Source: Flavobacteriaceae bacterium UJ101 (GTDB lineage Bacteria > Bacteroidota > Bacteroidia > Flavobacteriales > UJ101). Taken from it: a DNA stretch of 64,000 nt. Location of the stretch: the NCBI GenBank assembly GCA_001880285.1, contig CP016269.1, forward strand, positions 2,800,501 through 2,864,500, written 5' to 3'. A program made the translations under genes and the position numbers. The notes under the pieces were generated by a model. It had not been told where the DNA came from and ran no database searches. It was given only the letters and a program-made list of their open reading frames with translations. This document shows, piece after piece, positions 2,527 through 31,819 of this stretch (positions are counted from its first letter, which is position 1; each line of letters begins with the position of its first letter).

Positions 2527-3033
2527 ATGAAAACAAGTAAGTTACTACGGACATTATGTCTGGTCTTGTTTTTTCAACAAGCTTTTGCACAAGTGGGGAT
2601 TGAAAAAGCATCAGTGGATGGCGACGGAATTTTAGATTTTCCGGAAAACACAACCAAAGGGATTATTTTACCAAGAGTATCCAGTATATCTGGAGCGGTA
2701 AATGGGACGCTTATATTTGATACAAGCGATAATAAGGTAAAGGTAAACAACGGTACAGATTGGGAAGAATTAACAACAGATACTGGAGCGGCCCGTGTAT
2801 ATGAAAATACGGTAAGAGAAGTAGCGACTAACCAAGGAGTTATACTAGGATCGAATACATCCTCAGCACCAGGAGTGTTGGTATTAGAGTCAACAGATAA
2901 GGCTTTGATCTTACCTAAGATAGTGGAGCCACATAAAAATGTTGTAAATCCTGAACCAGGAATGATTTGTTATGATGTAACGAATAATACATTATCCATT
3001 TTTAATGGGAAAACGTGGGAGTTTTGGAAATAG
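2527..3033 (+). CDS. Small secreted two-repeat protein (P, module A)
   Basis: A 168-residue protein with a signal peptide (residues 1-21, ending AFA before QVG). The mature part is two copies of a domain of about 60 residues. The first has KGIILPR and GTLIFD, the second KALILPK and GMICYD, each ending in a short NGTDWE or NGKTWEFW strand. The same pattern occurs inside the T proteins and in the genes at 38543 and 40046. I do not recognise a characterised family. It opens module A, 36 bases before the next gene, and near-identical copies open modules B and C. Its constant sequence next to variable partners suggests a structural or assembly role common to all modules (inference). Confidence 0.85.
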   Translation: MKTSKLLRTLCLVLFFQQAFAQVGIEKASVDGDGILDFPENTTKGIILPRVSSISGAVNGTLIFDTSDNKVKVNNGTDWEELTTDTGAARVYENTVREVATNQGVILGSNTSSAPGVLVLESTDKALILPKIVEPHKNVVNPEPGMICYDVTNNTLSIFNGKTWEFWK

Positions 3034-3069
3034 AATTAAATAGTAAAAATATCAAAGGGTTTATAAGAT

Positions 3070-6000
3070 ATGAAAAAAATTAGACTAGATAAGAAAAAGG
3101 GACTACTATTATTATTTTTTATAGGTAGTTTGCTTTTTGGTAGAGAGATTGGGGCTTTTCCTTTGGGAAAGAATTCTAATCTAGCAACTTTAAAAGTAGG
3201 AGAGAATCAATATGTTTCTTTAATTAGAAATAGTATTAAGGCAGTTTCTACATCAAATCTTCAAGTGGTTTGGCAAGCAGATCCAAATGGAGGAAGTGCG
3301 CCAACTTATAGAAATGGAGCAAATAGTTATTTCACAGCTTCAAATATGAGTGTTAATGGTGTAGTTCAAAGAGGAATTAAAGATTGTAATGGTAGAAATT
3401 ATAATTCAGCTACTGTTTATAAAGGACAAAATATTACGACAACCTTAACGACAGGAAATTATTTTGTTAAGTTGTATGAGTTTTATGTACAGCATGTAGC
3501 AGGAAATCCTGCTCGTAACGTTACGGTACGAATTAGAAATAATTCAACAGGACAAAGTACAACATTAACAAGTAACGTAAATATTTATCGAGGGCAGTGT
3601 TTTGGTAATGAAACACGTGGTATTAATTATACGATGAGTCCTAATACATCATATACAGTAACTTTTGCCTTAAATTCATCAGGATGGTTAGACAATCCAA
3701 GATTTACAGCACAAGCAACAGCCGATAAAAGACCCATAGCCGTTAATGATACCTATACAATAGAAGAAGGTTCTTCAGTCTCAGGTAATGTAATGAACAA
3801 TGATACAAAAGGTGATGGAACAACTACAGTTATCAATAATACACAGCCTTCTAATGGAACGGTTACGATGAATTCAGATGGTACATTTACGTATACACCA
3901 GATTCTGATTTCATAGGGACCGATACTTTTAGTTATACCATTCAAGATTCAGACGGAGATACTAGCACAGCAACCGTAACAATCATAGTGGAAGAAGTAC
4001 CAGAATGTGATGACGCTAAGAAATATGGAGATTATTGTGATTTTGATGGAGATGGAAAATTAAATAAAGATGATCTTGATGACGATAACGATGGTATCTT
4101 AGATAATGATGAAGGAGGGTGTGAGACAACTCAAACTATAAATGATTATAAATTTGTAGGAAGAGCTTCTGTGGCAGTAGAGAATTTAGATCAAGCAAAA
4201 GTTACATCGCAAACATATAATGCATGGGGAACATCATACTCTAATGAAAAATTAACTTTACCAATACATCTTGAATTTAAACAAGCTTTAACTACAAATG
4301 GTAGTGCTTTGTTTGGACTATTACCTGATACTAAAACACAAACAATAGGTAAGTACAATGATAATGGGTATAAATTCTATATGAGTGGAAATAATGTACA
4401 TGGTTATTTTACAAAAGCATGGGATTTTACACATAAAGCACAAGCGAATGAATTATATGAAATTGATATAAATGAAAATGGTTATGTAATAGTTAAAATT
4501 GATGGTATAATTCAAAAACAATTTCAAGGAGTAAAAACAGACTATTATCTTGCTGCGACAGGTTTTACTAATTCAAGAGCAGTAACCTATACCGATATTA
4601 AAATTACTTCTGGAGATAGTAGTAATTGTACAGATCAAGATACCGATAAAGATGGAATCCCTGACAAATTTGATTTAGATTCAGATGGAGATGGTTGTTT
4701 TGATTCAATAGAAGGGAATGGAGGCTTTTCTTCAAACGATATTAATGATAATGGATCTTTATCAGGAAATGTAAATACGAATGGTGTTCCTAATAAAGCT
4801 AATGGAGGACAAAGTAAAGGTGTTAGTCAAGATGCTTCCGAGCAAGCAGCAAATTGTGATGACACTGATACGGATGGAGATGGAATTATTGATAATGTTG
4901 ATTTAGATGATGATAACGATGGTATTTTAGATGTAGATGAAAATTGTGCATTGATATCAGAGTTAGTTAAACCAGTAAGAGCTGTAAAATATAATGGAGA
5001 TAGTTGGAATCCTATAAATAGATCAATAGATGGATCTGGATTATCATCTGAGAGTATCGATGCAGTGCATACTGTTGGTAGACAAAACTTGAAGGATTAC
5101 TGGGTAACTACACATGGATCAACCGCTGAAATATCTTATTTTTTTGATGAAAATAAAGAAAATAAGATAACAGATTTAGCAATGTGGATTGGTCATATTA
5201 ACGGAAATGGTTTGGGAGATGGTCCTATTCGAGATTTTAAAGCTACGATTACGTATGATGGAGGAAAAGTGTTTGAAACAGAAACGTATACAGTTAAGGA
5301 TCCTAGTGGTTTGACAGATGATGAAATGAACAAAGTAACAATCTTTCCACTTGGAAAAGAGTTGAATAATGTGACGGAAATAAAATTGAGTATTTTAAAT
5401 GGATGGTATGATTCAGATAGTACTACGCGAACTTATATCCCAACAACAACACCTTATGGAATAACGTCAAATAAATCTAATTATAGTATTCTTATTGGAG
5501 AATTTAGAGGATTAGGTTCAGAAGGAGTAGAGTGTGATAGTGATATAGATAATGATGGGATACCAAATGAATTAGATTTAGATAGTGATGGAGATGGCTG
5601 TTTTGATTCAATAGAAGGAGACGGAGGTTTTGCTCCAAATCATATTAATAGTAATGGTTCTTTATCAGGAAATGTAGATGAAAATGGTGTCCCTATTAAA
5701 GCAGATGGAGGACAAAGTAAAGGTGTTAGTCAAGATGCTTTTGAACAAGCAGCGAATTGTGATGACACTGATACGGATGGAGATGGAATTATTGATAATG
5801 TCGATTTAGATGATGATAACGATGGTATTTTAGATATAGATGAAGGAGTATGTATAGGAGATCGAACTTTAGAAGATTATAATTTTTCAGGTAATGCAAT
5901 AATAGCAGTAAATGGAGATCAAGCAGGATTTAAAGCTAATGTAAATAGTGGTTGGAGGACTTCGTACTCTAATGAAAAATTAACTTTACCGATTCATTTA

Positions 6001-7896
6001 GAATTTAAACAAGCTGAGACTAGAAAGGGGATCGGTATGTTTGGTTTAATACCTGATACGACAGCACAAGTAACGACACATTATAACGATAAAGGTTATA
6101 AATTTTATATGCATAGTAATGGTAATGTATACGGTTACTTTACCAAAGCATGGAATTTTACACATAAAGCGCAAGCAGACGAATTATATGAAATTGATAT
6201 TGATGAAAATGGTTATGTAACGGTAAAAATAGGAGGCGAGACAAAATTAGCATACCAAGGAGCTAAAACCGATTACTATATTGATGCTACAGGTTTTACA
6301 ACTTCAACAGAAGAAGTGTATACCAATATTAAAATTACCTCTGGAAATAGTGTTAATTGTACAGCTCAAGATACCGATAATGATGGAATTCCTGATCAAT
6401 TAGATTTAGATAGTGATGGAGATGGCTGTTTTGATTCAATAGAAGGAGATGGCGGTTTTTCATCGGAAGATATTAATGCAGATGGTCGTTTATCAGGGAG
6501 TGTAGATGCAAACGGAGTACCAATTAAAGCAGACGGAGGTCAAGGTGTTGGCTTGAGTGAGGATGCTACTAAACAAGCAGCCAATTGTGTAGACAATACA
6601 GATACGGATGGCGATGGAATTCCAGATAGAATTGATTTAGATGATGATAACGATGGAATTCCGGATAGTGTTGAAGAGAAAACGGCAACCAATGGCGGTG
6701 ATACGGACGGCGATGGAATTCCGGATAGTTTGGATTTAGACAGTGATAATGATGGGATTCCGGATTTAGAAGAGAGTGGTTTAACGGTAGAAGAGATCAA
6801 GACCTTAGATCGAGATAATGATGGAGTAATTGATTCGAGTAATGATGTTGGGACCAATGGTATAGCGGATGCGATAGAACCTAAAGGAGAAGATGGAGGC
6901 GTAGATAGTAATGCGGTGGATTACGATAACGATGGTACGTCAGATGCTCCACAAGATACGGATGGTGATGGAATTCCAGACTTCCAGGATTTAGACAGTG
7001 ATAATGATGGTGTAACAGATTTAACGGAAGGCGGAACAAATCCAGCATTAGATCAAAATAACGATGGGAAGATAGATAACGCGACGGATGCAGACCAAGA
7101 TGGAATTGCCGATGTAATCGATGATGATACGTCTCGCTTTGGAGGCGATGAATCGAATGGAGCACCCGATACGGATGGAGATGGAATTAAAGACTTTAGA
7201 GATTTGGATAGTGATGATGATGGAATCAATGATGCAGAAGAAGCAGGAGTTCCGGATACAAATGGAGATGGAATGGATGATACGCCGAATGAGTCGTTTG
7301 CAGATGGAGAAGATTTACCAGACAGTGATGAAGATGGAACGCCAAATATCTTAGAGCCAAATGGCCCTGTAATTACGGGACCCGATACGGATCAGGATGG
7401 AATCAAAGATTCAGAAGATGGGAAGCCGGAAGAATTTGGAGATGCACCAATAAGTGCGACGACACCGGATTATTTTCCAAGAATTTTCACGAGTAATACG
7501 ATTATTACAGAAGATTCAGAATCAGTTGATTTTGTTGTGATGATAGGAGAGATAGAAGGTGGAGATTCTAATGGAACAGATCCTATTGAGTATGTTATTG
7601 TAAAACAATCGGAGTTATCGATTGATTTTGATACAACGTTAACCACATTGAATGGAAGAACGGTTAACAATAAGGACTGGAAATTGGAAGAAGATGACTT
7701 TACGTATAAGTTTATTTACACAGGAAATGGAGGAATCTTTGCTGGCGATAGCGCGAGTATGGTTGGTGTAAATGCAACGTTTACCCCACAATCAGGAACG
7801 AAAGGGACGTATCCATTAAAAGTTACGATTCAAGCAGGTTCAGGAGGCGAGACGAACTCTAAGAATAATGTAGATATAGATTATATAGAATTTTAA
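3070..7896 (+). CDS. Giant secreted TSP3-stalk protein, 'L' type (module A)
   Basis: A 1608-residue secreted protein. In order: signal peptide (1-29); unknown beta-rich region (30-215); a cadherin-like/Big_9-type domain (about 220-312, starting AVNDTYTIEEGSS); a short TSP3-like calcium-binding segment; domain X1 (about 350-520); TSP3; domain X2 (about 625-822), which looks like a galactose-binding-type sandwich (weak guess); TSP3; a second X1 copy (about 927-1098); a long stalk of DxDxDG repeats (about 1100-1460); and a 'tail' domain (about 1465-1608) with VNNKDW and a GGETNSKNNVD ending. The tail is homologous to that of the R proteins, but there is no N-terminal head domain. No T9SS sorting domain is visible at the C-terminus. 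Likely a surface adhesin or fibre component (inference). Confidence 0.85.
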   Translation: MKKIRLDKKKGLLLLFFIGSLLFGREIGAFPLGKNSNLATLKVGENQYVSLIRNSIKAVSTSNLQVVWQADPNGGSAPTYRNGANSYFTASNMSVNGVVQRGIKDCNGRNYNSATVYKGQNITTTLTTGNYFVKLYEFYVQHVAGNPARNVTVRIRNNSTGQSTTLTSNVNIYRGQCFGNETRGINYTMSPNTSYTVTFALNSSGWLDNPRFTAQATADKRPIAVNDTYTIEEGSSVSGNVMNNDTKGDGTTTVINNTQPSNGTVTMNSDGTFTYTPDSDFIGTDTFSYTIQDSDGDTSTATVTIIVEEVPECDDAKKYGDYCDFDGDGKLNKDDLDDDNDGILDNDEGGCETTQTINDYKFVGRASVAVENLDQAKVTSQTYNAWGTSYSNEKLTLPIHLEFKQALTTNGSALFGLLPDTKTQTIGKYNDNGYKFYMSGNNVHGYFTKAWDFTHKAQANELYEIDINENGYVIVKIDGIIQKQFQGVKTDYYLAATGFTNSRAVTYTDIKITSGDSSNCTDQDTDKDGIPDKFDLDSDGDGCFDSIEGNGGFSSNDINDNGSLSGNVNTNGVPNKANGGQSKGVSQDASEQAANCDDTDTDGDGIIDNVDLDDDNDGILDVDENCALISELVKPVRAVKYNGDSWNPINRSIDGSGLSSESIDAVHTVGRQNLKDYWVTTHGSTAEISYFFDENKENKITDLAMWIGHINGNGLGDGPIRDFKATITYDGGKVFETETYTVKDPSGLTDDEMNKVTIFPLGKELNNVTEIKLSILNGWYDSDSTTRTYIPTTTPYGITSNKSNYSILIGEFRGLGSEGVECDSDIDNDGIPNELDLDSDGDGCFDSIEGDGGFAPNHINSNGSLSGNVDENGVPIKADGGQSKGVSQDAFEQAANCDDTDTDGDGIIDNVDLDDDNDGILDIDEGVCIGDRTLEDYNFSGNAIIAVNGDQAGFKANVNSGWRTSYSNEKLTLPIHLEFKQAETRKGIGMFGLIPDTTAQVTTHYNDKGYKFYMHSNGNVYGYFTKAWNFTHKAQADELYEIDIDENGYVTVKIGGETKLAYQGAKTDYYIDATGFTTSTEEVYTNIKITSGNSVNCTAQDTDNDGIPDQLDLDSDGDGCFDSIEGDGGFSSEDINADGRLSGSVDANGVPIKADGGQGVGLSEDATKQAANCVDNTDTDGDGIPDRIDLDDDNDGIPDSVEEKTATNGGDTDGDGIPDSLDLDSDNDGIPDLEESGLTVEEIKTLDRDNDGVIDSSNDVGTNGIADAIEPKGEDGGVDSNAVDYDNDGTSDAPQDTDGDGIPDFQDLDSDNDGVTDLTEGGTNPALDQNNDGKIDNATDADQDGIADVIDDDTSRFGGDESNGAPDTDGDGIKDFRDLDSDDDGINDAEEAGVPDTNGDGMDDTPNESFADGEDLPDSDEDGTPNILEPNGPVITGPDTDQDGIKDSEDGKPEEFGDAPISATTPDYFPRIFTSNTIITEDSESVDFVVMIGEIEGGDSNGTDPIEYVIVKQSELSIDFDTTLTTLNGRTVNNKDWKLEEDDFTYKFIYTGNGGIFAGDSASMVGVNATFTPQSGTKGTYPLKVTIQAGSGGETNSKNNVDIDYIEF

Positions 7897-8410
7897 TAAG
7901 GGATAGAGAAAGATGAATAGATATAAAAAAATAGCAGCAGCATTGTGTGTTTTCTTATTTGCGAGTGAGCAGGTAAGTGCACAGGCTGTACAAGCATCAA
8001 ATGCGTTAATCTCACCTGTACCATTGAATACGGTAGAGAATAAAGGGACGGGATTGGCTAGTTTCACGTTTCATGAGACCTCAGGAGTAGCGGCACCAGC
8101 CTCTACGAATTTTGGGGCGAATATATTGATACAGATCGATATGGCGAATGTTGATCTACAGGATCAAGATACGAGTTTGATAACGGGAGATTTGTTAGAT
8201 TATTTTACGGTAAGTTACGATAGTAATACGAATAATATATCGTTGATACAGAAGGCGGAATATCCAGCCTCGAAGAATACGGTAGTGCGTATTCCGATAG
8301 TGGTAACGGGCAATACGGTAGAGGCGGTATCACAGAATGGATTTAATGTGAATTTAACGGCATTGGATCCTGATACGGATGCACAAGGAAATACATCCCG
8401 TTTCACGTAT
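5821..8410. repeat. Long shared block, module A copy (pair with 21625-24208)
   Basis: About 2.58 kb runs from the last X1 domain of the L gene through its stalk, tail, the L-R junction and the R head. It is highly similar to module C and nearly identical in the last 1.8 kb. The two copies differ in length by only about 6 bases. The similarity stops where the R stalk begins, which is the point at which the two modules carry different stalk units. Confidence 0.85.
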
Positions 8411-10558
8411 ACAGAAGCAAATCTTGATACGGATGGAGACGGAATTCCAGATAGTGTTGATTTAGATGACGATAATGATGGTATTCCAGATAGTGTAGAG
8501 GAGAAGACAGCCCCATCGAATGGCGATACGGATGGCGATGGTATTCCAGACAGTTTGGATTTAGATAGTGATAACGATGGAATCCCAGATATAGAAGAGA
8601 GTGGCTTAACGGTGGATGAAATCAAGACATTAGATAAAGACAACAACGGAGTAATAGATCCTAGTAACGAAGTTGGAACCAATGGTATAGCGGATGCAAT
8701 AGAGCCTAAAGAAGAAGATGGAGGAAAGGATAGTGATGTAGTAGATTATGATAACGATGGTACGTCAGATGCTCCACAAGATACGGATGGGGATGGTAAA
8801 CCAGACTTCCAGGATTGGGATAGTGATAATGATGGTGTAACAGACTTAACCGAAGGAGGAACGGATCCTAAATTGGATGCGAACAATGACGGAAAGATAG
8901 ACAACACAACCGATACAGATCAAGATGGAATCATGGATGTAATCGATGACGATACGACTGGATTTGGAGGTGATGAATCGAATGGAGCACCTGATACGGA
9001 TGAAGACGGTATTAAAGACTTTAGAGATTTGGATAGTGATGATGATGGGTTGAATGATGCCGAAGAAGCGAATGTACCGGACACGGATGGAGATGGTTTG
9101 GATGATACACCGAATGAGTCATTTGCAGATGGATCGGATTTACCGGATAGTGATGAAGACGGGAAGCCAAATATTATAGAACCTAATGGTCCAGTAATTA
9201 CAGGTCCAGATAGTGATGGAGATGGAATTAAGGATGCAGAAGATGGTGCCCCAGAAGAGTTTGGAGATGCATTAGTGGATACGGATGGCGATGGTATTCC
9301 AGATAGTGTTGATTTAGATGATGATAATGATGGAATCCCAGATAGTGTAGAAGAGAAGACAGCCCCATCAAATGGTGATACGGATGGCGATGGTATTCCA
9401 GACAGTTTGGATTTAGATAGTGATAACGATGGAATCCCAGATATAGAAGAGAGTGGCTTAACGGTGGATGAAATCAAGACATTAGATAAAGACAACAACG
9501 GAGTAATAGATCCTAGTAACGAAGTTGGAACCAATGGTATAGCGGATGCAATAGAGCCTAAAGGAGAAGGTGGAGGAAAGGATAGTGATGTAGTAGATTA
9601 TGATAACGATGGTACGTCAGATGCTCCACAAGATACGGATGGGGATGGTAAACCAGACTTCCAGGATTGGGATAGTGATAATGATGGTGTAACAGACTTA
9701 ACCGAAGGAGGAACGGATCCTAAATTGGATGCGAACAATGACGGAAAGATAGACAACACAACCGATACAGATCAAGATGGAATCATGGATGTAATCGATG
9801 ACGATACGACTGGATTTGGAGGTGGTGAATCGAATGGAGCACCTGATACGGATGAAGACGGTATTAAAGACTTTAGAGATTTGGATAGTGATGATGATGG
9901 GTTGAATGATGCCGAAGAAGCGAATGTACCGGACACGGATGGAGATGGTTTGGATGATACACCGAATGAGTCATTTGCAGATGGATCGGATTTACCGGAT
10001 AGTGATGAAGACGGGAAACCAAATATTATAGAACCTAATGGTCCAGTAATTACAGGTCCAGATAGTGATGGAGATGGAATTAAGGATACAGAAGATGGAG
10101 CACCAGAAGAATTTGGAGATGCCCCATTCCCTGATTTCACGGTACAAATCTCATCTAGACCAGCAGTGATTCAAAATGGAGGTAAATTATCGGTTCGAAT
10201 AAATGTGGTAGAGATTACAGGGAATCCATCTTTAGAAGGAAAGCCTATTGTAGTTCGTATACCAGAAGAAGAATTCTTTAACTTTAGTTTTAATGCAGAC
10301 TTAACACAAGTTAATGGCTTAAAGGTTAATAATGCTGATTGGGAGTATTTAGGTAAGCAATTTGGCTTGCATACGTTTAAGTATAAGCCAAGTACTTTTA
10401 AAGGTTTAAGTTCAAGTGCGATAGGCTTTGAAGGAACGGTAAGTTTTGAAGGAATTAGTGACACGAGTGTATCGGCGTATGTTGTAGATACAAGTGGAGG
10501 AGAAGTTAACTTCACGAACAATCGAGATACGGAGAAATTAAATTTAAAGGGGAATTAA
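7913..10558 (+). CDS. Secreted head-stalk-tail protein, 'R' type (module A)
   Basis: An 881-residue secreted protein starting 16 bases after the L gene. Signal peptide 1-24 (ending VSA before Q), then a 'head' domain (about 25-170) with the motif SYDSNTN, which is homologous to the head of the T proteins. Residues 172-739 are a very acidic TSP3-like stalk made of two tandem copies of a 284-residue unit. Residues 740-881 form the 'tail' domain (VNNADW, then [11 protein letters not shown]), homologous to the tail of the L proteins. Calcium binding by the DxDxDG loops is expected from the TSP3 family. No T9SS sorting domain is seen. Having both end domains, it is suited to be an internal link of a chain (inference). 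Confidence 0.85.
8426..10129. repeat. Two tandem 852-bp units coding the stalk
   Basis: Units 8426-9277 and 9278-10129 are in frame (284 codons each) and almost identical, with only scattered base differences. Each codes a series of [10 protein letters not shown]-type loops. This unit differs in sequence from the 669-bp unit of module C. Confidence 0.92.
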
Positions 10559-10570
10559 AAGAGAAGAAAA

Positions 10571-13042
10571 ATGATAAAAAAAATAATAAGCATATTAGGG
10601 ATTGTATTTCTTGGGACTTGGGCAAAAGCCCAAGACCCTGGAGTATCGGATGTGACGATAACACCCTCGATTGTAGAATCGGATAGTGATGCGAAATTTG
10701 ATTTTAATTTATATAACTCAAGTTCAGTAGGACTTACGAACTGGAGTGTAGGCGATAGTTTTGCATTAAAGGTAGTAATGAGTTTATCGGATGCGGTACC
10801 GAGTGATATTATCTCGGTATCGAACTCGATAAGTGGTACATGGTCAGGTAAGTTTGATTGGAGTTATGATAGTGATACCAATGTAATTACGGGGACTCAG
10901 AAGGAGGATATAGCAGGAGAGACTTTATCGGAAGCATCAGCGGGTAGTATATCGGTATCGGTAACGAACACAGCAGAGAGTACAGAGTCGGATCCGAATT
11001 GTGGATTTATAGTGAATTTAACACCTCCAGCATCGGCATCATCGATGAATACGGATGATGATTCGAAGAATATTTATACATATACGACAGAAGCATCAAC
11101 GACAACATGTTCTGGAGAAGTAGGAGGCATGGGCGACAATGATGATTTTGATGGAGATGGTATATGTAATATAGATGATTTGGATGATGATAATGATGGT
11201 GTGTTAGATACTGTAGAAACTTGTAGTACAGCTACAGAGGAATTATCAATTTTCGCATTTTTTCCACGTTGGGAAAATACATCGACTTCTGGAGAAAGTT
11301 CAACGATAGGGAGTTCAGATGTTACGGTTAATATATCGGTAAATCAAGGTGTATTATCTCAAATATCAGGTGCCTTATCAATAGGAATAGATGATCCTTC
11401 AACGACGACGACGAGTAATGGAGCAAAAGGGAATTTTATAGATCAGGATATCACGTTTACATTTTCAAGTATGGTGAGTAACCCTACCTTTGATATATCG
11501 GGGATTACGATAAGTACAAGTACGGGAGTAGGAGAATATATTAATGTAACAGGAGGAACGTTTAGTGCTCCGGAATTTTATACATATGATGCTACGGTTG
11601 ATGGGTGGACCTCATTTAGGAATGAAGATAGAGGGACATTTACAGTAGAAGGAATAGGAAGGACGTTTGTATTGAAAATTAGATATAAAGGAGATGTAGC
11701 AGGAGCTAGAGGCTTAATGTTGCGAAGTGTTACATTTGATGAAGTTTGTGATACAGATGGCGATGGTATACCAAATAGTTTTGATTTAGACAGTGATGGA
11801 GATGGCTGTCCAGATGCTAAGGAATCTGGAGTTACGAGTTTAGGAGGTGTAACGATGACGACAGGAAATGTAGTAAATGGAGATGGTACGAATAATACGA
11901 CAACAGTTACATCAGAAGCTGTAGTTTCAGGAGATGTTGGGACAGATGGATTGGTAGATAGTTTAGAGACCTCAATTGATAGTGGTGAATTTAAAGGTAT
12001 TTATACGTATTCTGATGCGACGGATGCTAGTATTAATGGATGTTCATGTAGTGCAAGTTCATTGACAAGTGGAACAGCAGAAGTTACGAAGACGGGAATA
12101 TCGACATTGGATGCACATCCTACGAATAATTGGCCAAATGATGTGAGAAATGGATTTATAACATTAGAGTCGACGAATAAAGGATTTGTGATTACACGAT
12201 TATCGGATCCAGAGACGGATATAGAGAACCCAGTAAAAGGGATGTTAGTATTTGATACGACGATGAAGTGTTTACGTATGAACAATGATGGAACGAGTTC
12301 TGGCTGGACGGGCTGTTTACAGAAGGGCTGTAATAGTTGGGTAGATGTTCAGATGGATATAGCGTGTAAAGATGAGAGTTTATCAGGGCCTGTAGATGGA
12401 GCTACTCCAATCTTAGCATGGAACAAGAACATGAAGTCAGAATTACAAACAGCAGGAAGTATGACGAAGGAAGAGTTTATGTCAGGTTTAACATTTATGC
12501 AGATAAAACATCCGAATTTATATGATGAGGCAGGAAGTCAAATAGCAGGTTGTACGACGATTGTATCAGGTTATTCTCCTTATTTAGCAACGACAGTAAA
12601 GATTCATTATGCAGATGGTAGTACACGAAATGTGCGAGCAATGGCAGATGTATGTTTAGATGATAGTTGGAGTAATATAGTGAATACAACATTATTAGAT
12701 GAGCTTTACAATGGTAGTGGAGATAAAGAGATTGAAAGTATAGAATTTGTATCGAATAATGCTACGGCAATAGGAGCTTCTTTAGTATCAGTATCTAATT
12801 TATTAGGATTAAAGCATACGATCAGTGGAACGTTTACGGATAGTGAAGGTTTAGCACCGTTTAACTTAGTTGATATATCAGATGGAAGTGTAGTAGGAAC
12901 GGTAAGTTCGAGTCCATTTAGTATAGAATTATCAGGACAGACAACAGGAGAAACGAGAAGTTTCCAATTACAAAGTCAATCAGATACAACGAAGACATCA
13001 AATACAATTGATTTATATTTTGAGGATTGCTCTTCAAATTAA
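10571..13042 (+). CDS. Secreted terminal protein, 'T' type (module A)
   Basis: An 823-residue secreted protein, last of module A, 12 bases after the R gene. Signal peptide about 1-20, then a 'head' domain (about 21-185, motif SYDSDTN) homologous to the R head. A short TSP3 segment follows (about 187-216), then a variable insert (about 217-393) unlike that of modules B and C, a second TSP3 segment (about 393-422), a P-like domain (about 515-580, KGFVITR and GMLVFD) and a Cys-containing C-terminal region. It has no tail domain and no T9SS sorting domain. The P-like domain suggests contact or shared ancestry with the P protein. It may cap the assembly (inference). Confidence 0.83.
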
Positions 13043-13061
13043 AAAAAAGATGTAAAATGAT

Positions 13062-13093
13062 AAAAAAGCAGTCATATTATGACTGCTTTTTTT
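13062..13093 (+). terminator. Rho-independent terminator ending module A
   Basis: A perfect stem AAAAAAGCAGTC / GACTGCTTTTTTT lies just after the T gene. It is almost the same hairpin as at 2272 and 19897. Confidence 0.88.
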
Positions 13094-13193
13094 ATAGTCA
13101 ATTTCGATGAAATGACAAATATTAATGTTAAATAAAATATAATTATAGTTGAATAGCAGGTATATTTATTTTACAACCCTGTTTTTATTTATT

Positions 13194-13270
13194 CAATCTC
13201 TTTTTCTTGTTTATAGGACCCTTTTTTTATTAATGAACCTTTTGTGACATACTATTATATAAGACTTTTG
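13194..13270 (+). promoter_or_regulatory. Module B promoter region with phased elements
   Basis: This is the counterpart of the module A region. AATC, GACC, AACC and GACA elements sit about 23, 18 and 11 bases apart, followed by GACTTTTG at 13263-13270. The intervening bases differ from modules A and C while the spacing holds, which argues for a selected protein-binding layout. Module B is the most diverged of the three. Confidence 0.45.
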
Positions 13271-13314
13271 TCTGTTAATAATATAAAATATAAAAAAATC
13301 AAAAAGACACGAGT

Positions 13315-13821
13315 ATGAAAATGAGTAAGTTACTACGGACATTATGTCTGGTCTTGTTTTTTCAACAAGCTTTTGCACAAGTGGGGATTGAAAAAGCATC
13401 AGTGGATGGCGACGGAATTTTAGATTTTCCGGAAAACACAACCAAAGGGATTATTTTACCAAGAGTGTCCAGTATGTCTGGAGCGGTAAATGGGACGCTT
13501 ATATTTGATACAAGCGATAATAAGGTAAAGGTAAACAACGGTACAGATTGGGAAGAATTAACAACAGATACTGGCGCGGCCCGTGTATATGAAAATACGG
13601 TAAGAGAAGTAGCGACTAACCAAGGAGTTATACTAGGGTCGGATACATCCTCAGCACCAGGAGTGTTGGTATTAGAGTCAACAGATAAGGCTTTGATCTT
13701 ACCTAAGATAGTGGAGCCACATAAAAATGTTGTAAATCCTGAACCAGGGATGATTTGTTATGATGTAACGAATAATACATTATCCATTTTTAATGGAAAA
13801 ACATGGGAATTTTGGAAATAA
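13315..13821 (+). CDS. Small secreted two-repeat protein (P, module B)
   Basis: A 168-residue protein that differs from the module A copy at only a few residues (MKMSK instead of MKTSK, SSMSG instead of SSISG, GSDTSS instead of GSNTSS). It has the same signal peptide and two-domain structure (KGIILPR...GTLIFD and KALILPK...GMICYD). It lies 13 bases before the module B large gene. Most DNA differences from the other copies are silent, which suggests either recent duplication with selection or ongoing sequence homogenisation. Confidence 0.85.
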   Translation: MKMSKLLRTLCLVLFFQQAFAQVGIEKASVDGDGILDFPENTTKGIILPRVSSMSGAVNGTLIFDTSDNKVKVNNGTDWEELTTDTGAARVYENTVREVATNQGVILGSDTSSAPGVLVLESTDKALILPKIVEPHKNVVNPEPGMICYDVTNNTLSIFNGKTWEFWK

Positions 13822-13834
13822 TTAATGATGTAAT

Positions 13835-17389: not shown

Positions 17390-17411
17390 GAAACGCTCAA
17401 AAGTGAAAAAA

Positions 17412-19874: not shown

Positions 19875-19880
19875 AATTAA
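17412..19880 (+). CDS. Secreted terminal protein, 'T' type (module B)
   Basis: An 822-residue secreted protein, last gene of module B. I chose ATG 17412 over the in-frame GTG at 17403 because the A and C copies begin with the same Met-Ile-Lys. Layout: signal peptide, head (SYDSDTN), TSP3 segment, variable insert beginning EECLAPEEEYTV, TSP3 segment ([14 protein letters not shown]), P-like domain (KGFVITR, GMLVFD) and C-terminal region. From about 17830 almost to the stop I see no base difference from the module C copy, while the first 400 bases carry several. The module A copy differs in the insert and in the last third. Confidence 0.83.
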   Translation: MIKKIISILGIVFFGTWANAQDPGVSDVTITPSIVESGSTAKFDFNLYNSSSVGLTNWSVGDSFALKVVMSLSDAVPSDIISVSNSISGTWSGKFDWSYDSDTNVITGTQKEDIAGETLSEASAGSISVSVTNTAESTESDPNCGFIVNLTPPASASSMNTDDDSKNIYTYTTEASTTTCSGEVGGMGDNDDFDGDGICNIDDLDDDNDGVLDTEECLAPEEEYTVSPVTFWGASPSTTGSGTFGSMSATGTATNNFSRNDTTVSFRPLDSTETSYVFQTYNFSQSVDVSIDFFNLQASIEDFVFDQSPDLDKSSINSTYHSLVDSSIEFTGVSNNNLIVIRGGTNGQGGTSDSSTVYFSNITTLTIGYNSSNPAHNAAYRNMKIFVPSETCSDTDGDGILNIFDLDSDGDGCPDAKEAGVTSLGGVTMTTGNVVNGDGTNNTTTVTSEAVVSGDVGTDGLVDSLETSIDSGEFKGIYTYSNATDASINGCSCSASSLTSGTAEVTKTGISTLDTPPTNNWPNDVRNGFITLESTNKGFVITRLSDPETDIENPVKGMLVFDTTMKCLRMNNDGTSSGWTGCLQKGCNSWVDVQMDIACKDESLSGPVDGATPILAWNKNMKSELQTAGSMTKEEFMSGLTFMQIDHPNLYDEAGNQVVGCTTIQSGSSAYLHTTVKINYTDGTSETISSAISDTCLNDSWSDILSTRLLDALYNSDKEIQNIEFVRNNATAIGAGFTSTASLLGLKHTISGTYTDSEELGPFNLVDTSDGSVIGTVSSSPFSIELSGQTTGETRSFELQSQSDTTKTSNTVDLYFEDCSSN

Positions 19881-20031: not shown

Positions 20032-20108
20032 AAACCCTCTTTTTTTACGTATAGGAATGTTTTTTTATTATGGAACCTTTTGTAAACCTCTATAATATAG
20101 GACTTTTG
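20032..20108 (+). promoter_or_regulatory. Module C promoter region with phased elements
   Basis: AACC-type elements begin at 20033, 20056, 20074 and 20085, with spacings 23, 18 and 11. They are followed by GACTTTTG at 20101-20108, 16 bases after the last element. The layout is identical to module A, and the last 40 bases are also nearly identical in sequence. An extra AACC lies at 20014. Confidence 0.5.
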
Positions 20109-20150
20109 CTTCCTAAAATTATGTTAAAATAAAAAACGAAAAACACAAGA

Positions 20151-20657
20151 ATGAAAACAAGTAAGTTACTGCGGACATTATGTCTGGTCTTGTTTTTTCA
20201 ACAAGCTTTTGCACAAGTGGGGATTGAAAAAGCATCAGTGGATGGCGACGGAATTTTAGATTTTCCGGAAAACACAACTAAAGGAATTATTTTACCAAGA
20301 GTATCCAGTATATCTGGAGCGGTAAATGGGACGCTTATATTTGATACAAGCGATAATAAGGTAAAGGTAAACAACGGTACAGATTGGGAAGAATTAACAA
20401 CAGATACTGGAGCGGCCCGTGTATATGAAAATACGGTAAGAGAAGTAGCGACTAACCAAGGAGTTATACTAGGGTCGGATACTTCTTCAGCACCAGGAGT
20501 GTTGGTATTAGAGTCAACAGATAAGGCTTTGATCTTACCTAAGATAGTGGAGCCACATAAAAATGTTGTAAATCCTGAACCAGGGATGATTTGTTATGAT
20601 GTAACGAATAATACATTATCCATTTTTAATGGAAAAACATGGGAATTTTGGAAATAG
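20151..20657 (+). CDS. Small secreted two-repeat protein (P, module C)
   Basis: A 168-residue protein that differs from the module A copy by a single residue (Asp for Asn in GSDTSS). Signal peptide 1-21, then two P domains with KGIILPR/GTLIFD and KALILPK/GMICYD. It is separated by 46 bases from the L gene. The strong conservation contrasts with the divergent N-terminal regions of the large proteins that follow P in each module. Confidence 0.85.
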   Translation: MKTSKLLRTLCLVLFFQQAFAQVGIEKASVDGDGILDFPENTTKGIILPRVSSISGAVNGTLIFDTSDNKVKVNNGTDWEELTTDTGAARVYENTVREVATNQGVILGSDTSSAPGVLVLESTDKALILPKIVEPHKNVVNPEPGMICYDVTNNTLSIFNGKTWEFWK

Positions 20658-20703
20658 AATTTAATATAGTAGAATCTATTTAGATAATGAAAAAAAATTA
20701 ATA

Positions 20704-23694: not shown

Positions 23695-24208
23695 TAAGGG
23701 ATAGAGAAAGATGAATAGATATAAAAAAATAGCAGCAGCATTGTGTGTTTTGTTATTTGCGAGTGAGCAAATAAGTGCACAGGCTGTACAAGCATCAAAT
23801 GCGTTAATCTCGCCTGTACCATTGAATACGGTAGAGAATAAAGGGACGGGATTGGCTAGTTTCACGTTTCATGAGACCTCAGGAGTAGCGGCACCAGCCT
23901 CTACGAATTTTGGGGCGAATATATTGATACAGATCGATATGGCGAATGTTGATCTACAGGGTCAAGATACGAGTTTGATAACGGGAGATTTGTTAGATTA
24001 TTTTACGGTAAGTTACGATAGTAATACGAATAATATATCGTTGATACAGAAGGCGGAATATCCAGCCTCGAAGAATACGGTAGTTCGTATTCCGATAGTG
24101 GTAACGGGCAATACGGTAGAGGCGGTATCACAGAATGGATTTAATGTTAATTTAACGGCATTGGATCCTGATACGGATGCACAAGGAAATGCATCCCGTT
24201 TCACGTAT
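21625..24208. repeat. Long shared block, module C copy (pair with 5821-8410)
   Basis: Counterpart of the module A block. The L-R junction, including the 16 intergenic bases, is unchanged. The similarity ends at the start of the 669-bp array at 24218. Confidence 0.85.
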
Positions 24209-27200
24209 ACTGCAGCAGACACAGACGGAGACGGAATTCCAGACAGTGTTGACTTAGATGACGATAACGACGGTATTCCAGATAGCGTAGAAGGGTATAA
24301 TGCGGATAATCCGGACCAATCGACGGATACGGATGGAGACGGAACGCCAGATTACTTGGATATCGATACGGACAATGACGGAATTCCAGATTTAATGGAG
24401 AGTGGCTTACCACAGAGTCAGATTGATGCCTTAGATACGGATAACGACGGCGTAATCGATCCAAGTCAAGAAGTAGGCGAGAACGGAATAGTAGACAGTA
24501 TAGAGCCGGATAATAAAGATCAAGGTTTAACAGATGATAAGGTTGATTACAATGATGATGGAACCAACGACAGTCCAAGAGATACGGACGGAGACAATGT
24601 AGGCGACTGGCGTGATTTAGACTCAGATAACGATGGATTAAATGATGTAGAAGAAGCGGGGTTACCGGATACAGACGGCAACGGACAAGTGGATACCCCA
24701 GATACGATCGTGGATGAATTACCGGAGACGGATGGGAATATTGATGTATTAACACCGAATAATCCTGACTTAACAGACACGGAAGATCCAGATGGCGACG
24801 GTGTCGTAGAAGGGACGGATACAGACGGCGATGGAATTATCGATCCAGTGGATGGATTACCAGAAGAATTTGGAGATGCACCACAAGATACGGATGGAGA
24901 CGGTATCCCAGACAGTGTTGACTTAGATGACGATAACGACGGTATTCCAGATAGCGTAGAAGGGTATAATGCGGATAATCCGGACCAATCGACGGATACG
25001 GATGGCGATGGAACGCCAGATTACTTGGATATCGATACGGACAATGACGGAATTCCAGATTTAATGGAGAGTGGCTTACCACAGAGTCAGATTGATGCCT
25101 TAGATACGGATAACGACGGAGTAATCGATCCGAGTCAAGAAGTAGGCGAGAACGGAATAGTAGACAGTATAGAGCCGGATAATAAAGATCAAGGCTTAAC
25201 AGATGATAAGGTTGATTACAATGATGATGGGACCAACGACAGTCCAAGAGATACGGACGGAGACAATGTAGGCGACTGGCGTGATTTAGACTCAGATAAC
25301 GATGGATTAAATGATGTAGAAGAAGCGGGGTTACCGGATACAGACGGCAACGGACAAGTGGATACACCAGATACGATCGTGGATGAATTACCGGAGACGG
25401 ATGGGAATATTGATGTATTAACACCGAATAATCCTGACTTAACAGACACGGAAGATCCAGATGGCGACGGTGTCGTAGAAGGGACGGATACAGACGGCGA
25501 TGGAATTATCGATCCAGTGGATGGATTACCAGAAGAATTTGGAGATGCCCCACAAGATACAGACGGCGATGGTATCCCAGACAGTGTTGATTTAGATGAC
25601 GATAACGACGGTATTCCAGATAGCGTAGAAGGGTATAATGCGGATAATCCGGACCAATCGACGGATACGGATGGAGACGGAACGCCGGATTACTTGGATA
25701 TCGATACGGATAATGACGGAATTCCAGACTTAATGGAGAGTGGCTTACCACAGAGTCAGATTGATGCCTTAGATACGGATAACGACGGTATAATCGATCC
25801 GAGTCAAGAAGTAGGTACAAACGGAATCGTAGACAGTATAGAGCCGGATAATAAAGATCAAGGCTTAACAGATGATAAGGTTGATTACAATGATGATGGG
25901 ACCAACGACAGTCCAAGAGATACGGATGGAGACAATGTAGGCGACTGGCGAGATTTAGACTCAGATAACGATGGATTAAATGATGTAGAAGAAGCAGGGT
26001 TACCGGATACAGACGGCAACGGACAAGTGGATACTCCAGATACGATCGTGGATGAATTACCGGAGACGGATGGTAATATCGATGTATTAACACCGAACAA
26101 TCCTGACTTAACGGATACGGAAGATCCAGATGGAGACGGTGTCGTAGAAGGGACAGATACAGATGGCGATGGAATCATCGATCCAGTGGACGGATTACCA
26201 GAAGAATTTGGAGATGCACCACAAGATACAGACGGAGACGGAATCCCAGATAGTGTTGATTTAGATGACGATAACGACGGTATTCCAGATAGCGTAGAAG
26301 GGTATAATTCGGATAATCCGGACCAATCGACGGATACGGATGGCGACGGAACGCCAGATTACTTGGATATCGATACGGACAATGACGGAATTCCAGATTT
26401 AATGGAGAGTGGCTTACCACAGAGTCAGATCGATGCCTTAGATACGGATAACGACGGTATAATCGATCCGAGTCAAGAAGTAGGTGTGAACGGAATAGTA
26501 GACAGTATAGAGCCGGATAATAAAGATCAAGGCTTAACAGATGATAAGGTTGATTACAATGATGATGGGACCAACGACAGTCCAAGAGATACGGATGGAG
26601 ACAATGTAGGCGACTGGCGTGATTTAGACTCAGATAACGATGGATTAAATGACGTAGAAGAAGCAGGGTTACCGGATACGGACGGCAACGGACAAGTAGA
26701 TACTCCAGATACGATTGTGGATGAATTACCGGAGACGGATGGTAATATCGATGTATTAACACCGAATAATCCTGACTTAACGGACACGGAAGATCCAGAT
26801 GGAGATGGTGTCGTAGAAGGGACGGATACAGACGGCGATGGAATTATCGATCCAGTGGATGGATTACCAGAAGAATTTGGAGATGCACCACAAGATACAG
26901 ACGGAGACGGAATTCCAGACAGTGTTGACTTAGATGACGATAACGACGGTATTCCAGATAGCGTAGAAGGGTATAATGCGGATAATCCGGACCAATCGAC
27001 GGATACGGATGGAGACGGAACGCCGGATTACTTGGATATCGATACGGACAATGACGGAATTCCAGACTTAATGGAGAGTGGCTTACCACAGAGTCAGATC
27101 GATGCCTTAGATACGGATAACGACGGTATAATCGATCCGAGTCAAGAAGTAGGTGTGAACGGAATAGTAGACAGTATAGAGCCGGATAATAAAGATCAAG

Positions 27201-29329
27201 GCTTAACAGATGATAAGGTTGATTACAATGATGATGGGACCAACGACAGTCCAAGAGATACGGATGGAGACAATGTAGGCGACTGGCGTGATTTAGACTC
27301 AGATAACGATGGATTAAATGACGTAGAAGAAGCAGGGTTACCGGATACGGACGGCAACGGACAAGTGGATACTCCAGATACGATCGTGGATGAATTACCG
27401 GAGACGGATGGTAATATCGATGTATTAACACCGAATAATCCTGACTTAACAGACACAGAGGATCCAGATGGCGACGGTGTCGTAGAAGGGACGGATACAG
27501 ACGGCGATGGAATTATCGATCCAGTGGATGGATTACCAGAAGAATTTGGAGATGCACCACAAGATACAGACGGAGACGGAATTCCAGACAGTGTTGACTT
27601 AGATGACGATAACGACGGTATTCCAGATAGCGTAGAAGGGTATAATTCGGATAATCCGGACCAATCGACGGATACGGATGGAGATGGAACGCCAGATTAC
27701 TTGGATATCGATACGGACAATGATGGAATTCCAGACTTAATGGAGAGTGGCTTACCACAGAGTCAGATCGATGCCTTAGATACGGATAACGACGGTATAA
27801 TCGATCCGAGTCAAGAAGTAGGTGTGAACGGAATAGTAGACAGTATAGAGCCGGATAATAAAGATCAAGGCTTAACAGATGATAAGGTTGATTACAATGA
27901 TGATGGGACCAACGACAGTCCAAGAGATACGGATGGAGACAATGTAGGCGACTGGCGTGATTTAGACTCAGATAACGATGGATTAAATGACGTAGAAGAA
28001 GCAGGGTTACCGGATACGGACGGCAACGGACAAGTAGATACTCCAGATACGATTGTGGATGAATTACCGGAGACGGATGGTAATATCGATGTATTAACAC
28101 CGAATAATCCTGACTTAACGGACACGGAAGATCCAGATGGAGATGGTGTCGTAGAAGGGACGGATACAGACGGCGATGGAATTATCGATCCAGTGGATGG
28201 ATTACCAGAAGAATTTGGAGATGCACCACAAGATACAGACGGAGACGGAATTCCAGACAGTGTTGACTTAGATGACGATAACGACGGTATTCCAGATAGC
28301 GTAGAAGGGTATAATTCGGATAATCCGGACCAATCGACGGATACGGATGGAGATGGAACGCCAGATTACTTGGATATCGATACGGACAATGACGGAATTC
28401 CAGACTTAATGGAGAGTGGCTTACCACAGAGTCAGATCGATGCCTTAGATACGGATAACGACGGTATAATCGATCCGAGTCAAGAAGTAGGTGTGAACGG
28501 AATAGTAGACAGTATAGAGCCGGATAATAAAGATCAAGGCTTAACAGATGATAAGGTTGATTACAATGATGATGGGACCAACGACAGTCCAAGAGATACG
28601 GATGGAGACAATGTAGGCGACTGGCGTGATTTAGACTCAGATAACGATGGATTAAATGACGTAGAAGAAGCAGGGTTACCGGATACGGACGGCAACGGAC
28701 AAGTAGATACTCCAGATACGATTGTGGATGAATTACCGGAGACGGATGGTAATATCGATGTATTAACACCGAATAATCCTGACTTAACAGACACGGAAGA
28801 TCCAGATGGCGACGGTGTCGTAGAAGGGACGGATACAGACGGCGATGGAATAGTCGATATAACAGATGGAAATCCAGAAGAATTTGGAGATGCTCCATTC
28901 CCTGATTTCACAGTACAAATCTCATCTAGACCAGCAGTGATTCAAAATGGAGGTAAATTATCGGTTCGAGTAAATGTGGTAGAGATTACAGGGAATCCAT
29001 CTTTAGACGGGAAACCGGTAGTCGTAAGAATCCCAGAAGAAACGTTCTTTGATTTTAATTTCAATAGTGAATTAACACAGGTTAATGGCTTAAAGGTTAA
29101 TAATGCTGATTGGGAGTATTTAGGTAAGCAATTTGGCTTGCATACATTTAGATATAAACCAAGTACTTTTGAAGGCTTAACTTCAAGTGCGATAGGCTTT
29201 GAAGGAACGGTAAGTTTTGAAGGAGTTAGTGACACGAGTGTATCAGCCTTTGTAGTAGATACAAGTGGAGGAGAAGTTAACTTTACGAACAATCGAGATA
29301 CGGAGCAATTGAATTTAAAGAACAATTAA
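23711..29329 (+). CDS. Giant secreted head-stalk-tail protein with 7 stalk repeats, 'R' type (module C)
   Basis: An 1872-residue secreted protein. Signal peptide about 1-24, head domain about 25-168 (SYDSNTN), nearly identical to the module A R head. Residues 170-1730 are seven tandem 223-residue units of TSP3-like loops, each starting [19 protein letters not shown] or nearly so and including a [15 protein letters not shown] stretch. Residues 1731-1872 are the tail ([17 protein letters not shown]). The protein is extremely acidic and should bind many calcium ions in the manner of TSP3 repeats, giving a long rigid rod (family knowledge and inference). It starts 16 bases after the L gene. No T9SS sorting domain is seen. 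Confidence 0.87.
24218..28900. repeat. Seven tandem 669-bp in-frame repeats
   Basis: Units start at 24218, 24887, 25556, 26225, 26894, 27563 and 28232 and end at 28900. Every unit is exactly 669 bp (223 codons). Small marks track their history: NADNPDQ in units 1, 2, 3 and 5 against NSDNPDQ in 4, 6 and 7; EVGENG in 1-2, EVGTNG in 3, EVGVNG in 4-7. Units 4, 6 and 7 are the most alike. Copy number could change by recombination without breaking the frame. Confidence 0.97.
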
Positions 29330-29350
29330 GAAACGCTGAAAAGAAAAAAA

Positions 29351-31813
29351 ATGATAAAAAGAATAATAAGCATATTAGGGGTTGTATTCCTTGGGACTTG
29401 GGCAAAAGCCCAAGACCCTGGAGTATCAGATGTGACGATAACACCCTCGATTGTAGAATCGGGTAGTACTGCAAAATTTGATTTTAATTTATATAACTCA
29501 AGTTCAGTAGGACTTACGAACTGGAGTGTAGGCGATAGTTTTGCATTAAAGGTAGTAATGAGTTTATCGGATGCGGTACCGAGTGATATTATCTCGGTAT
29601 CAAACTCGATAAGTGGTACATGGTCAGGTAAGTTTGATTGGAGTTATGATAGTGATACCAATGTAATTACGGGGACTCAGAAGGAGGATATAGCAGGAGA
29701 GACTTTATCGGAAGCATCAGCGGGTAGTATATCGGTATCGGTAACGAATACAGCAGAGAGTACGGAGTCGGATCCGAATTGTGGATTTATAGTGAATTTA
29801 ACACCTCCAGCATCGGCATCATCGATGAATACGGATGATGATTCGAAGAATATTTATACATATACGACAGAAGCATCAACGACAACATGTTCTGGAGAAG
29901 TAGGAGGCATGGGTGACAATGATGATTTTGATGGAGATGGTATATGTAATATAGATGATTTGGATGATGATAATGATGGTGTATTGGATACAGAGGAATG
30001 TTTGGCTCCAGAAGAAGAATATACTGTTTCACCTGTTACGTTTTGGGGGGCATCACCATCGACAACAGGATCTGGTACATTTGGAAGTATGAGTGCAACA
30101 GGAACGGCAACAAATAATTTTAGTAGAAATGATACAACGGTAAGTTTTAGACCATTAGATTCAACAGAGACTTCGTATGTATTTCAGACCTATAATTTTA
30201 GTCAATCGGTAGATGTATCCATAGACTTTTTTAATTTACAGGCAAGTATTGAAGATTTTGTTTTTGATCAATCCCCTGATTTAGATAAATCCTCTATAAA
30301 TTCTACGTATCATAGTTTAGTAGATAGTAGTATAGAATTCACAGGAGTATCGAATAACAATCTTATTGTAATAAGAGGAGGGACTAATGGTCAAGGAGGG
30401 ACTTCTGATTCATCCACAGTATATTTTAGTAATATAACAACATTAACCATAGGATATAATTCATCGAATCCAGCACATAACGCAGCTTATCGTAACATGA
30501 AGATTTTTGTACCTTCAGAAACATGTTCAGATACAGATGGCGATGGGATATTAAATATCTTTGATTTAGATAGTGATGGAGACGGCTGTCCAGATGCTAA
30601 GGAAGCTGGTGTTACGAGTTTAGGAGGAGTAACGATGACGACAGGAAATGTAGTAAATGGAGATGGTACGAATAATACGACAACAGTTACTTCAGAAGCT
30701 GTAGTTTCAGGAGATGTTGGTACTGATGGATTGGTAGATAGTTTAGAGACTTCAATTGATAGTGGTGAATTTAAAGGTATTTATACCTATTCTAATGCGA
30801 CGGATGCTAGTATTAATGGATGTTCATGTAGTGCAAGTTCACTGACAAGTGGAACGGCAGAAGTTACGAAGACGGGAATATCGACATTGGATACTCCTCC
30901 TACGAATAATTGGCCGAATGATGTGAGAAATGGATTTATAACATTAGAGTCGACGAATAAAGGATTTGTGATTACACGATTATCGGATCCAGAGACGGAT
31001 ATAGAGAACCCAGTAAAAGGGATGTTAGTATTTGATACGACGATGAAGTGTTTACGTATGAACAATGATGGAACGAGTTCTGGCTGGACGGGCTGTTTAC
31101 AAAAGGGCTGTAACAGTTGGGTAGATGTTCAGATGGATATAGCGTGTAAAGATGAGAGTTTATCAGGGCCTGTAGATGGAGCTACTCCAATCTTAGCATG
31201 GAACAAGAACATGAAGTCAGAATTACAAACAGCAGGAAGTATGACGAAGGAAGAGTTTATGTCAGGTTTAACATTTATGCAGATAGATCATCCGAATTTA
31301 TATGATGAAGCGGGAAATCAAGTAGTAGGATGTACCACAATACAATCAGGGTCAAGTGCTTATTTACATACAACAGTAAAGATTAATTATACAGATGGGA
31401 CATCAGAGACAATTAGTAGTGCCATATCGGATACATGTTTAAATGATAGTTGGAGTGATATTTTAAGTACAAGATTATTGGATGCACTTTATAATAGTGA
31501 TAAAGAGATTCAAAACATTGAGTTTGTAAGAAATAATGCAACAGCAATAGGAGCAGGATTTACTTCTACGGCAAGTTTATTAGGACTGAAACATACAATT
31601 AGTGGAACTTATACAGATAGTGAAGAGTTAGGGCCATTTAATTTAGTTGATACCTCAGATGGAAGTGTAATTGGAACTGTGAGTTCAAGTCCATTTAGTA
31701 TAGAGTTATCAGGACAGACAACAGGAGAGACGAGAAGTTTTGAATTACAGAGTCAATCGGATACAACGAAGACATCGAATACAGTTGATTTATATTTTGA
31801 AGATTGTTCTTCA
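29351..31813. repeat. Near-identical T gene copy (pair with 17412-19874)
   Basis: Partner of the module B T gene. The similarity ends at the stop codon, where module C continues into a different terminator instead of the shared terminator-promoter unit. Confidence 0.88.
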
Positions 31814-31819
31814 AATTAG
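29351..31819 (+). CDS. Secreted terminal protein, 'T' type (module C)
   Basis: An 822-residue secreted protein, last gene of module C, 21 bases after the R gene. Signal peptide ([20 protein letters not shown]), head domain with SYDSDTN, TSP3 segment, insert beginning EECLAPEEEYTV (about 217-390), TSP3 segment, P-like domain (KGFVITR, GMLVFD) and a C-terminal region with an SGTYTDSEE stretch. After the signal peptide it appears identical to the module B protein. It has no tail domain and no T9SS sorting domain. Confidence 0.83.
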   Translation: MIKRIISILGVVFLGTWAKAQDPGVSDVTITPSIVESGSTAKFDFNLYNSSSVGLTNWSVGDSFALKVVMSLSDAVPSDIISVSNSISGTWSGKFDWSYDSDTNVITGTQKEDIAGETLSEASAGSISVSVTNTAESTESDPNCGFIVNLTPPASASSMNTDDDSKNIYTYTTEASTTTCSGEVGGMGDNDDFDGDGICNIDDLDDDNDGVLDTEECLAPEEEYTVSPVTFWGASPSTTGSGTFGSMSATGTATNNFSRNDTTVSFRPLDSTETSYVFQTYNFSQSVDVSIDFFNLQASIEDFVFDQSPDLDKSSINSTYHSLVDSSIEFTGVSNNNLIVIRGGTNGQGGTSDSSTVYFSNITTLTIGYNSSNPAHNAAYRNMKIFVPSETCSDTDGDGILNIFDLDSDGDGCPDAKEAGVTSLGGVTMTTGNVVNGDGTNNTTTVTSEAVVSGDVGTDGLVDSLETSIDSGEFKGIYTYSNATDASINGCSCSASSLTSGTAEVTKTGISTLDTPPTNNWPNDVRNGFITLESTNKGFVITRLSDPETDIENPVKGMLVFDTTMKCLRMNNDGTSSGWTGCLQKGCNSWVDVQMDIACKDESLSGPVDGATPILAWNKNMKSELQTAGSMTKEEFMSGLTFMQIDHPNLYDEAGNQVVGCTTIQSGSSAYLHTTVKINYTDGTSETISSAISDTCLNDSWSDILSTRLLDALYNSDKEIQNIEFVRNNATAIGAGFTSTASLLGLKHTISGTYTDSEELGPFNLVDTSDGSVIGTVSSSPFSIELSGQTTGETRSFELQSQSDTTKTSNTVDLYFEDCSSN

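Follow-up and report, generated by a model that had tools for sequence, protein, structure and literature searches.

Recurrent head and tail domains of matching types suggest ordered surface chains encoded by giant-protein modules of Bacteroidota

The window analyzed here is a 64,000-nucleotide stretch of the genome of Flavobacteriaceae bacterium UJ101 (G000:2800501-2864500; genome size 3.07 Mb) that contains three tandem gene modules on its forward strand (positions 2527-13042, 13315-19880 and 20151-31819). Genes within each module follow the order S, L or a propeller protein, R (where present) and T. In module 1, the 168-residue S1 protein (2527-3033), which has a signal peptide and two S-type repeats, is followed by L1 (3070-7896; 1608 residues), in which a variable N-terminal region precedes a Big_9 domain, a TSP3-like stalk and an L-type (class A) tail domain (7447-7893). 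R1 (7913-10558; 881 residues) contains an R-type (class A) head domain (7973-8422) and an R-type (class B) tail domain (10118-10555) on either side of a stalk built from two 284-residue units, while T1 (10571-13042; 823 residues) has a T-type (class B) head domain (10631-11083), a short stalk, an S-like domain (12041-12346) and a further C-terminal region. A terminator-like stem-loop is located 3' of the module (13062-13092), and a similar sequence occurs after module 2. Module 2 comprises S2 (13315-13821), the 1184-residue propeller protein X2 (13835-17389), which is composed of a beta-propeller-like N-terminal part, an L-like stalk and an R-type (class B) tail (16949-17386), and, directly downstream, T2 (17403-19880; 825 residues) with a T-type head (17472-17924). 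Module 3 comprises S3 (20151-20657), L3 (20704-23694; 996 residues), R3 (23711-29329; 1872 residues) and T3 (29351-31819; 822 residues). L3 has an N-terminal region unlike those of L1 and X2, followed by a Big_9 domain, a stalk and an L-type tail (23245-23691); R3 has an R-type head (23771-24214) and an R-type tail (28889-29326), and T3 a T-type head (approximately 29411-29866). The array is bracketed by three AraC-type regulator genes on the same strand, two upstream (167-1111 and 1298-2233, which resemble each other in sequence) and one immediately downstream of module 3 (31979-32899). Elsewhere in the window (55415-60227), a gene whose 523-residue product carries a type A signal for the T9SS is followed by one for a 1072-residue protein that matches an RHS-type repeat.

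A preliminary description of this DNA, all of whose named open reading frames are present in the sequence, had proposed that an N-terminal domain (the head) is common to the R and T proteins, and a C-terminal domain (the tail) to L, R and the 1184-residue protein. Sequence comparisons confirm both domains. The R and T heads are 27-31% identical over ~150 residues (pairwise BLAST, E-values of 2e-6 to 3e-16) and have a SYDSxTN motif in their alignment, while the L-type and R-type tails are 28-30% identical (E-values of ~1e-11 to 1e-13), with the motifs VNN-DW and SGGE-N--NN-D invariant in the alignment. The tail of X2 is of the R type, as it is 81-87% identical to the R tails and 29-30% identical to the L tails. 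The proposed order, in which the first large protein has a tail but no head, the middle one has both and the last has a head but no tail, holds in all three modules of the window, with module 2 having no middle protein. The rule was nevertheless incomplete: the ends of the proteins were correctly assigned, but the 168-residue S gene that opens each module was left out, and the existence of two matching types among the tails and among the heads was missed. Searches of Pfam, NCBIfam and PDB sequences with head and tail produced no meaningful match, and as candidates for a single family the two match each other weakly at the profile level (hhalign probability 8%, P 0.0043).

Variation is concentrated at the L end, where the N-terminal regions of L1, L3 and X2 differ; R varies mainly in length. 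The R3 stalk consists of seven units spaced exactly 223 residues apart, and stalk length is quantized in these 223-residue (669-base) units, with seven in R3, ten in R4 (L003 6946-14571) and one in R5 (L002 11853-13463), the latter two being encoded elsewhere in the genome. Tandem Repeats Finder did not detect the 669-base units because its period limit is 500. The number of DxDxDG loops is 29 in R1, 64 in R3 and 91 in R4, and TSP3 calcium-binding stalks, which had been put forward as spacers of a surface fiber, are indeed prominent in the window. They are not constant in other species, however, as the L and R proteins of an Ulvibacter genome described below have no or nearly no DxDxDG loops, and calcium-rigid spacers are therefore not part of the general mechanism.

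By profile search the genome contains exactly nine tails and nine heads, and every one of them belongs to one of five modules; a family-level scan covered this genome only. The two additional modules are M4 (G000:561-578 kb, minus strand), which encodes S, an L of 2554 residues, an R of 2541 residues and a T of 271 residues, and M5 (2,493.8-2,501.2 kb), which encodes S, the 1176-residue X5 protein with a propeller-type N-terminal part, an R of 536 residues and a T of 570 residues. Both keep the order of heads and tails, such that every tail in the genome (nine of nine) is directly followed by a head. The L-type tails (L1, L3, L4 and X5) are 96-100% identical to one another, the R-type tails (R1, R3, R4, R5 and X2) 81-98%, the R heads 93-100% and the T heads 75-100%. 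An L-type tail always precedes an R head, and an R-type tail always precedes a T head. The two propeller proteins, which by eye are alike in their propeller-type part, differ in their tails accordingly: X5 has an L-type tail and is followed by R5, whereas X2 has an R-type tail and is followed by T2. X2 looks chimeric: an L-like stalk (mostly 80-95% identical to L1 and L3) gives way at the sequence EEFGDAP to an R-like tail, the closest relative of which is the R5 tail. Judged from these similarities, it is likely the product of a deletion that joined an X5-like gene to an R5-like gene inside an M5-like module; such a product keeps the rule automatically, which makes X2 less weighty as independent proof. 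The modules themselves have been duplicated (the T1-T3 heads are 98.8-100% identical, and S1-S3 98-99%), and the nine junctions represent few independent events because paralogous module copies carry their pairs along together.

Head and tail domains are rare outside this genome. Heads were found in 2 of the 396 genomes sampled from the order, the second being an uncultured Ulvibacter, and tails in 6 of the 397 genomes sampled from the family of that Ulvibacter genome. A scan of genome contigs using mixed tails as the query recovered further relatives; the same scan with the heads of the UJ101 genome as the query found none, and neither a tail search of plasmids nor a head search of phages produced a match. 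Three-gene sets encoding a tail protein, a head-plus-tail protein and a head protein are present in Ulvibacter, Patiriisocius marinus, a Polaribacter record and genome G515. In the Ulvibacter operon, proteins of 2767 residues (tail), 1609 residues (head and tail) and 2706 residues (head) are followed by a PorP/SprF family protein and an OmpA/PorE-like protein, and both tail-head junctions show the A pairing. The G515 proteins have 408 residues (tail), 772 residues (head and tail) and 1177 residues (head, with a borderline type A signal). Two-protein loci, in which a tail gene precedes a head gene, occur in G748, G444, G1084, G1064, G989 and a contig labeled as a Planctomycetota metagenome-assembled genome, and loci of the same kind with a weakly detected head occur in G828 (two loci) and G1035. 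For the pair on the Planctomycetota contig (L044 2-2727), transfer and mis-binning are both possible. A 446-residue Polaribacter open reading frame (L043 9664-11004), in which a head is fused to a PorP barrel, was dismissed as a candidate anchor: it covers only positions 139-292 of the 292 in the PorP/SprF barrel model and lies beside a repeat, which makes a collapsed assembly the likelier explanation.

A manual tally of 35 tail genes, including those of the UJ101 genome, revealed that the next gene encodes a head in 26 cases (three weak), another tail-type protein in four and neither in five. For the 26 tails outside this genome, the corresponding numbers are 17 (three weak), four and five, where the standalone tails are those of G397, a contig-end fragment in G444, two in G515 and one in Spirosoma. 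In G397 (L065), the tail gene lies downstream, not upstream, of a type B/PorP/OmpA cluster. Ulvibacter also encodes four solo heads that have T9SS-type ends and no tail neighbor (L037 11385-16544; L039 6799-7590; L040 8377-9150), and these could be trans partners of tails encoded elsewhere. The tail-then-head rule is thus strong but not absolute, because four tails precede tail genes and five stand alone. The recurrence that the preliminary description had suggested looking for across Bacteroidota is observed in independent lineages, and the arbitrary arrangements that it regarded as contrary to its model occur in a minority of loci (solo heads, solo tails and G397).

The agreement between tail type and the type of the following head was assessed by building trees of 26 tails and of their 26 next heads, including the three weakly detected ones (G828 twice and G1035), and comparing the two distance matrices. 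The distances are correlated across the 26 junctions (r = 0.795), a value that was not reached in any of 5000 free shuffles (maximum 0.468). When partners were shuffled only within genomes, which removes the effect of species relatedness, the mean correlation was 0.461, and 7 of 5000 shuffles were at or above the observed value. This second comparison constitutes support, not proof, because the nine paralogous junctions of the UJ101 genome dominate it, and the agreement of types could partly stem from a common duplication history rather than from contact.

In the loci of other species, T9SS signals are found on the head-only proteins alone, while the tails, which extend to the last residue or nearly so, occupy the position of the signal. 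TIGR04183 scores above cut-off in the head-only proteins of L100-L103 and L105. In five of the two-protein loci (G1084, G1064, G828 twice and G1035), the small head partner of 345-373 residues carries a type A sorting domain above NCBI's cut-off. The G989 partner lacks a signal, but one of type B is carried by the gene that follows. The Ulvibacter T protein contains a type B sorting domain (CHU_C, above cut-off), and it is this gene that is followed by the PorP/SprF and OmpA/PorE-like genes. The UJ101 genome encodes the T9SS translocon protein SprA (2078 bits, G000:1162144-1168980) and has 29 TIGR04183 matches above cut-off, none of which lies inside the modules; T1 matches no sorting domain in Pfam or NCBIfam. 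The modules of the window are flanked by AraC-type genes and have no PorP/SprF or PorE-like neighbors, and inspection by eye revealed no lipoprotein signals or sortase motif.

The T proteins of the UJ101 genome do hold the S-like domain, which forms the extreme C-terminus of T4 and T5. This domain and the C-terminal repeat of S are homologous (29-36% identity over ~50 residues). All eight S genes in the genome are clustered with one protein that contains this domain at or near its C-terminus (five T proteins and three single-protein loci), with the S gene located on either side. Clusters outside the window are located at L001 7371-16286, L002 7790-8287, L004 7291-7791, L005 6858-8807 and L006 3527-7079. 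The L001 protein (7914-16286; 2790 residues), which adjoins its own S gene, has TSP3-like stalks, a propeller-like part and an S-like end, with neither head nor tail. Based on this clustering, S and the S-like domain possibly constitute another partner pair, or else a different kind of surface anchor, and we speculate that the T proteins of the window may use the S-like domain together with S in place of a classical signal.

To model a junction, the R1 tail and the T1 head were predicted as one chain by reading through the single stop codon that separates these in-frame genes. The model (mean pLDDT 67, pTM 0.45) contains two beta sandwiches and no confident interface, while the R1 head alone was predicted with a pLDDT of 72 and a pTM of 0.72. 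In structure searches, the top match of the head model is 9ifr, a CLIPPER/DUF11 structure (Z 12.0, rmsd 2.3, 120 aligned residues), and the same entry matches the tail model at rank 32 for the tail-head chain (Z 11.1, rmsd 2.8, 120 aligned residues). Integrin alpha domains score like 9ifr against these moderate-confidence models, and the sandwich fold is common and by itself uninformative about function. No Pfam DUF11 match was obtained among 19 tails or 16 heads at E-values up to 1, and a viral fold library returned nothing useful. An intermolecular isopeptide linkage was considered and rejected, as neither the head nor the tail alignment contains a conserved lysine.

We consider it probable that the products of each module assemble by tail-to-head docking into a single ordered chain on the cell surface, with L as the variable tip and T as the anchored base. 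Here we infer tail-head binding, the direction of the chain, co-export of the signal-less proteins and adhesin function. The C-terminal tail of one protein would bind the N-terminal head of the next gene's product, so that only the last protein would need a surface route and an anchor; the signal-less proteins would be exported together with the signal-bearing one. The adhesive portion, distal and variable, would be supplied by L or the propeller protein; R, in modules that have it, would act as a spacer whose length varies, and T would serve as the base. The variable end of L, the length differences of R and the sorting signal on T fit such a distal tip, spacer and anchored base. The docking chain originally envisioned for the window is supported by the recurrent order and the matching types; the read-through model contains no confident interface. 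A wider and more tentative formulation, which we rate below the chain itself, is that this is a general form of T9SS piggybacking: the Ig-type plug of a signal-less protein might bind the Ig socket of a signal-bearing partner that exports and anchors the whole chain, the plug and socket types might determine the order as a kind of specificity code, and the base in the window might substitute the S/S-like pair for known signals.

Several other explanations account for part of these observations. The tail could be an undescribed T9SS sorting domain, with L, R and X exported independently and the head serving as an N-terminal Ig cap. It is a C-terminal beta sandwich at the place of a sorting domain in genomes that have a T9SS, solo tails occur, and solved T9SS sorting domains are likewise Ig-like sandwiches (PMC11285876). 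We nonetheless regard this explanation as distinctly unlikely, since it leaves unexplained why a head follows the tail at 26 of 35 tails, why the types of tail and next head agree and why the classical signal resides on the partner. Somewhat less improbable, although still unlikely, is that the pattern reflects history only, in which case paralogs of a tandem adhesin cluster would have recombined in their stalks, and heads and tails would be non-interacting caps whose order and types were inherited with the operon. The duplication of modules and the apparently recombinant stalk/tail border of X2 are in keeping with such a history, but it does not explain why the order is kept in distant genera despite unrelated stalks and tips, or why pairing within genomes exceeds that in shuffled sets. 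Finally, R could self-polymerize through its tail and head into a pilus-like fiber that is capped by L and rooted in T; R has both ends, and these are of a single type in Ulvibacter and G515. This appears highly improbable, as the R tail is of class B and the R head of class A in the UJ101 genome, a mismatch that would prevent self-polymerization under the docking chain, and as R is missing altogether from module 2 and from the two-gene loci.

Docking of plug and socket as predicted by the chain model would explain how giant signal-less proteins arrive at the surface, and would allow a single anchor to present interchangeable tips at a fixed distance. Head and tail would then represent two undescribed domain families that can be used to find more members by sequence, and the matching types allow docking to be tested directly with matched and mismatched pairs. 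T9SS cargo is normally recognized through its own C-terminal signal, and giant signal-less surface proteins encoded next to such cargo would therefore have been overlooked as cargo themselves.

By the membership tests made, the modules belong to no named family, and the closest systems in kind are the T9SS adhesin operons. A literature search, which had little reach into subscription journals, found no description of this layout. In F. johnsoniae, operons that encode a type B substrate, an SprF-like shuttle and a PorE homolog are proposed to give rise to static complexes with an anchor in the cell wall (PMC12618676). The last chain protein of Ulvibacter is likewise a CHU_C/type B protein followed by PorP/SprF and OmpA/PorE-like genes, but two signal-less tail proteins are added upstream, partners that are absent from the consulted passages of that description, whereas the modules of the window have neither SprF, PorE nor a recognized signal. 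CLIPPER (DUF11) domains are stalk domains (PDB 9ifr; PMC12617251), and the head and tail models, of moderate confidence, resemble them in fold; however, heads and tails do not match Pfam DUF11, occur singly at protein ends instead of in tandem, and have no conserved lysine for an isopeptide bond. The chain loci also resemble the gliding operon in that both place multiple large surface proteins upstream of a sorting-signal protein in one operon; heads and tails are, as noted above, limited to few of the genomes sampled. In that operon, sprC-sprD-sprB-sprF, several large surface proteins precede the sorting-signal adhesin and SprF. SprC travels along the gliding track (PMC12635249). The inferred product is also similar to Type V and sortase pili in being an ordered fiber with a tip and a base. 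In those pili one pilin is polymerized, whereas the subunits of the chains described here would each be encoded once, in order.
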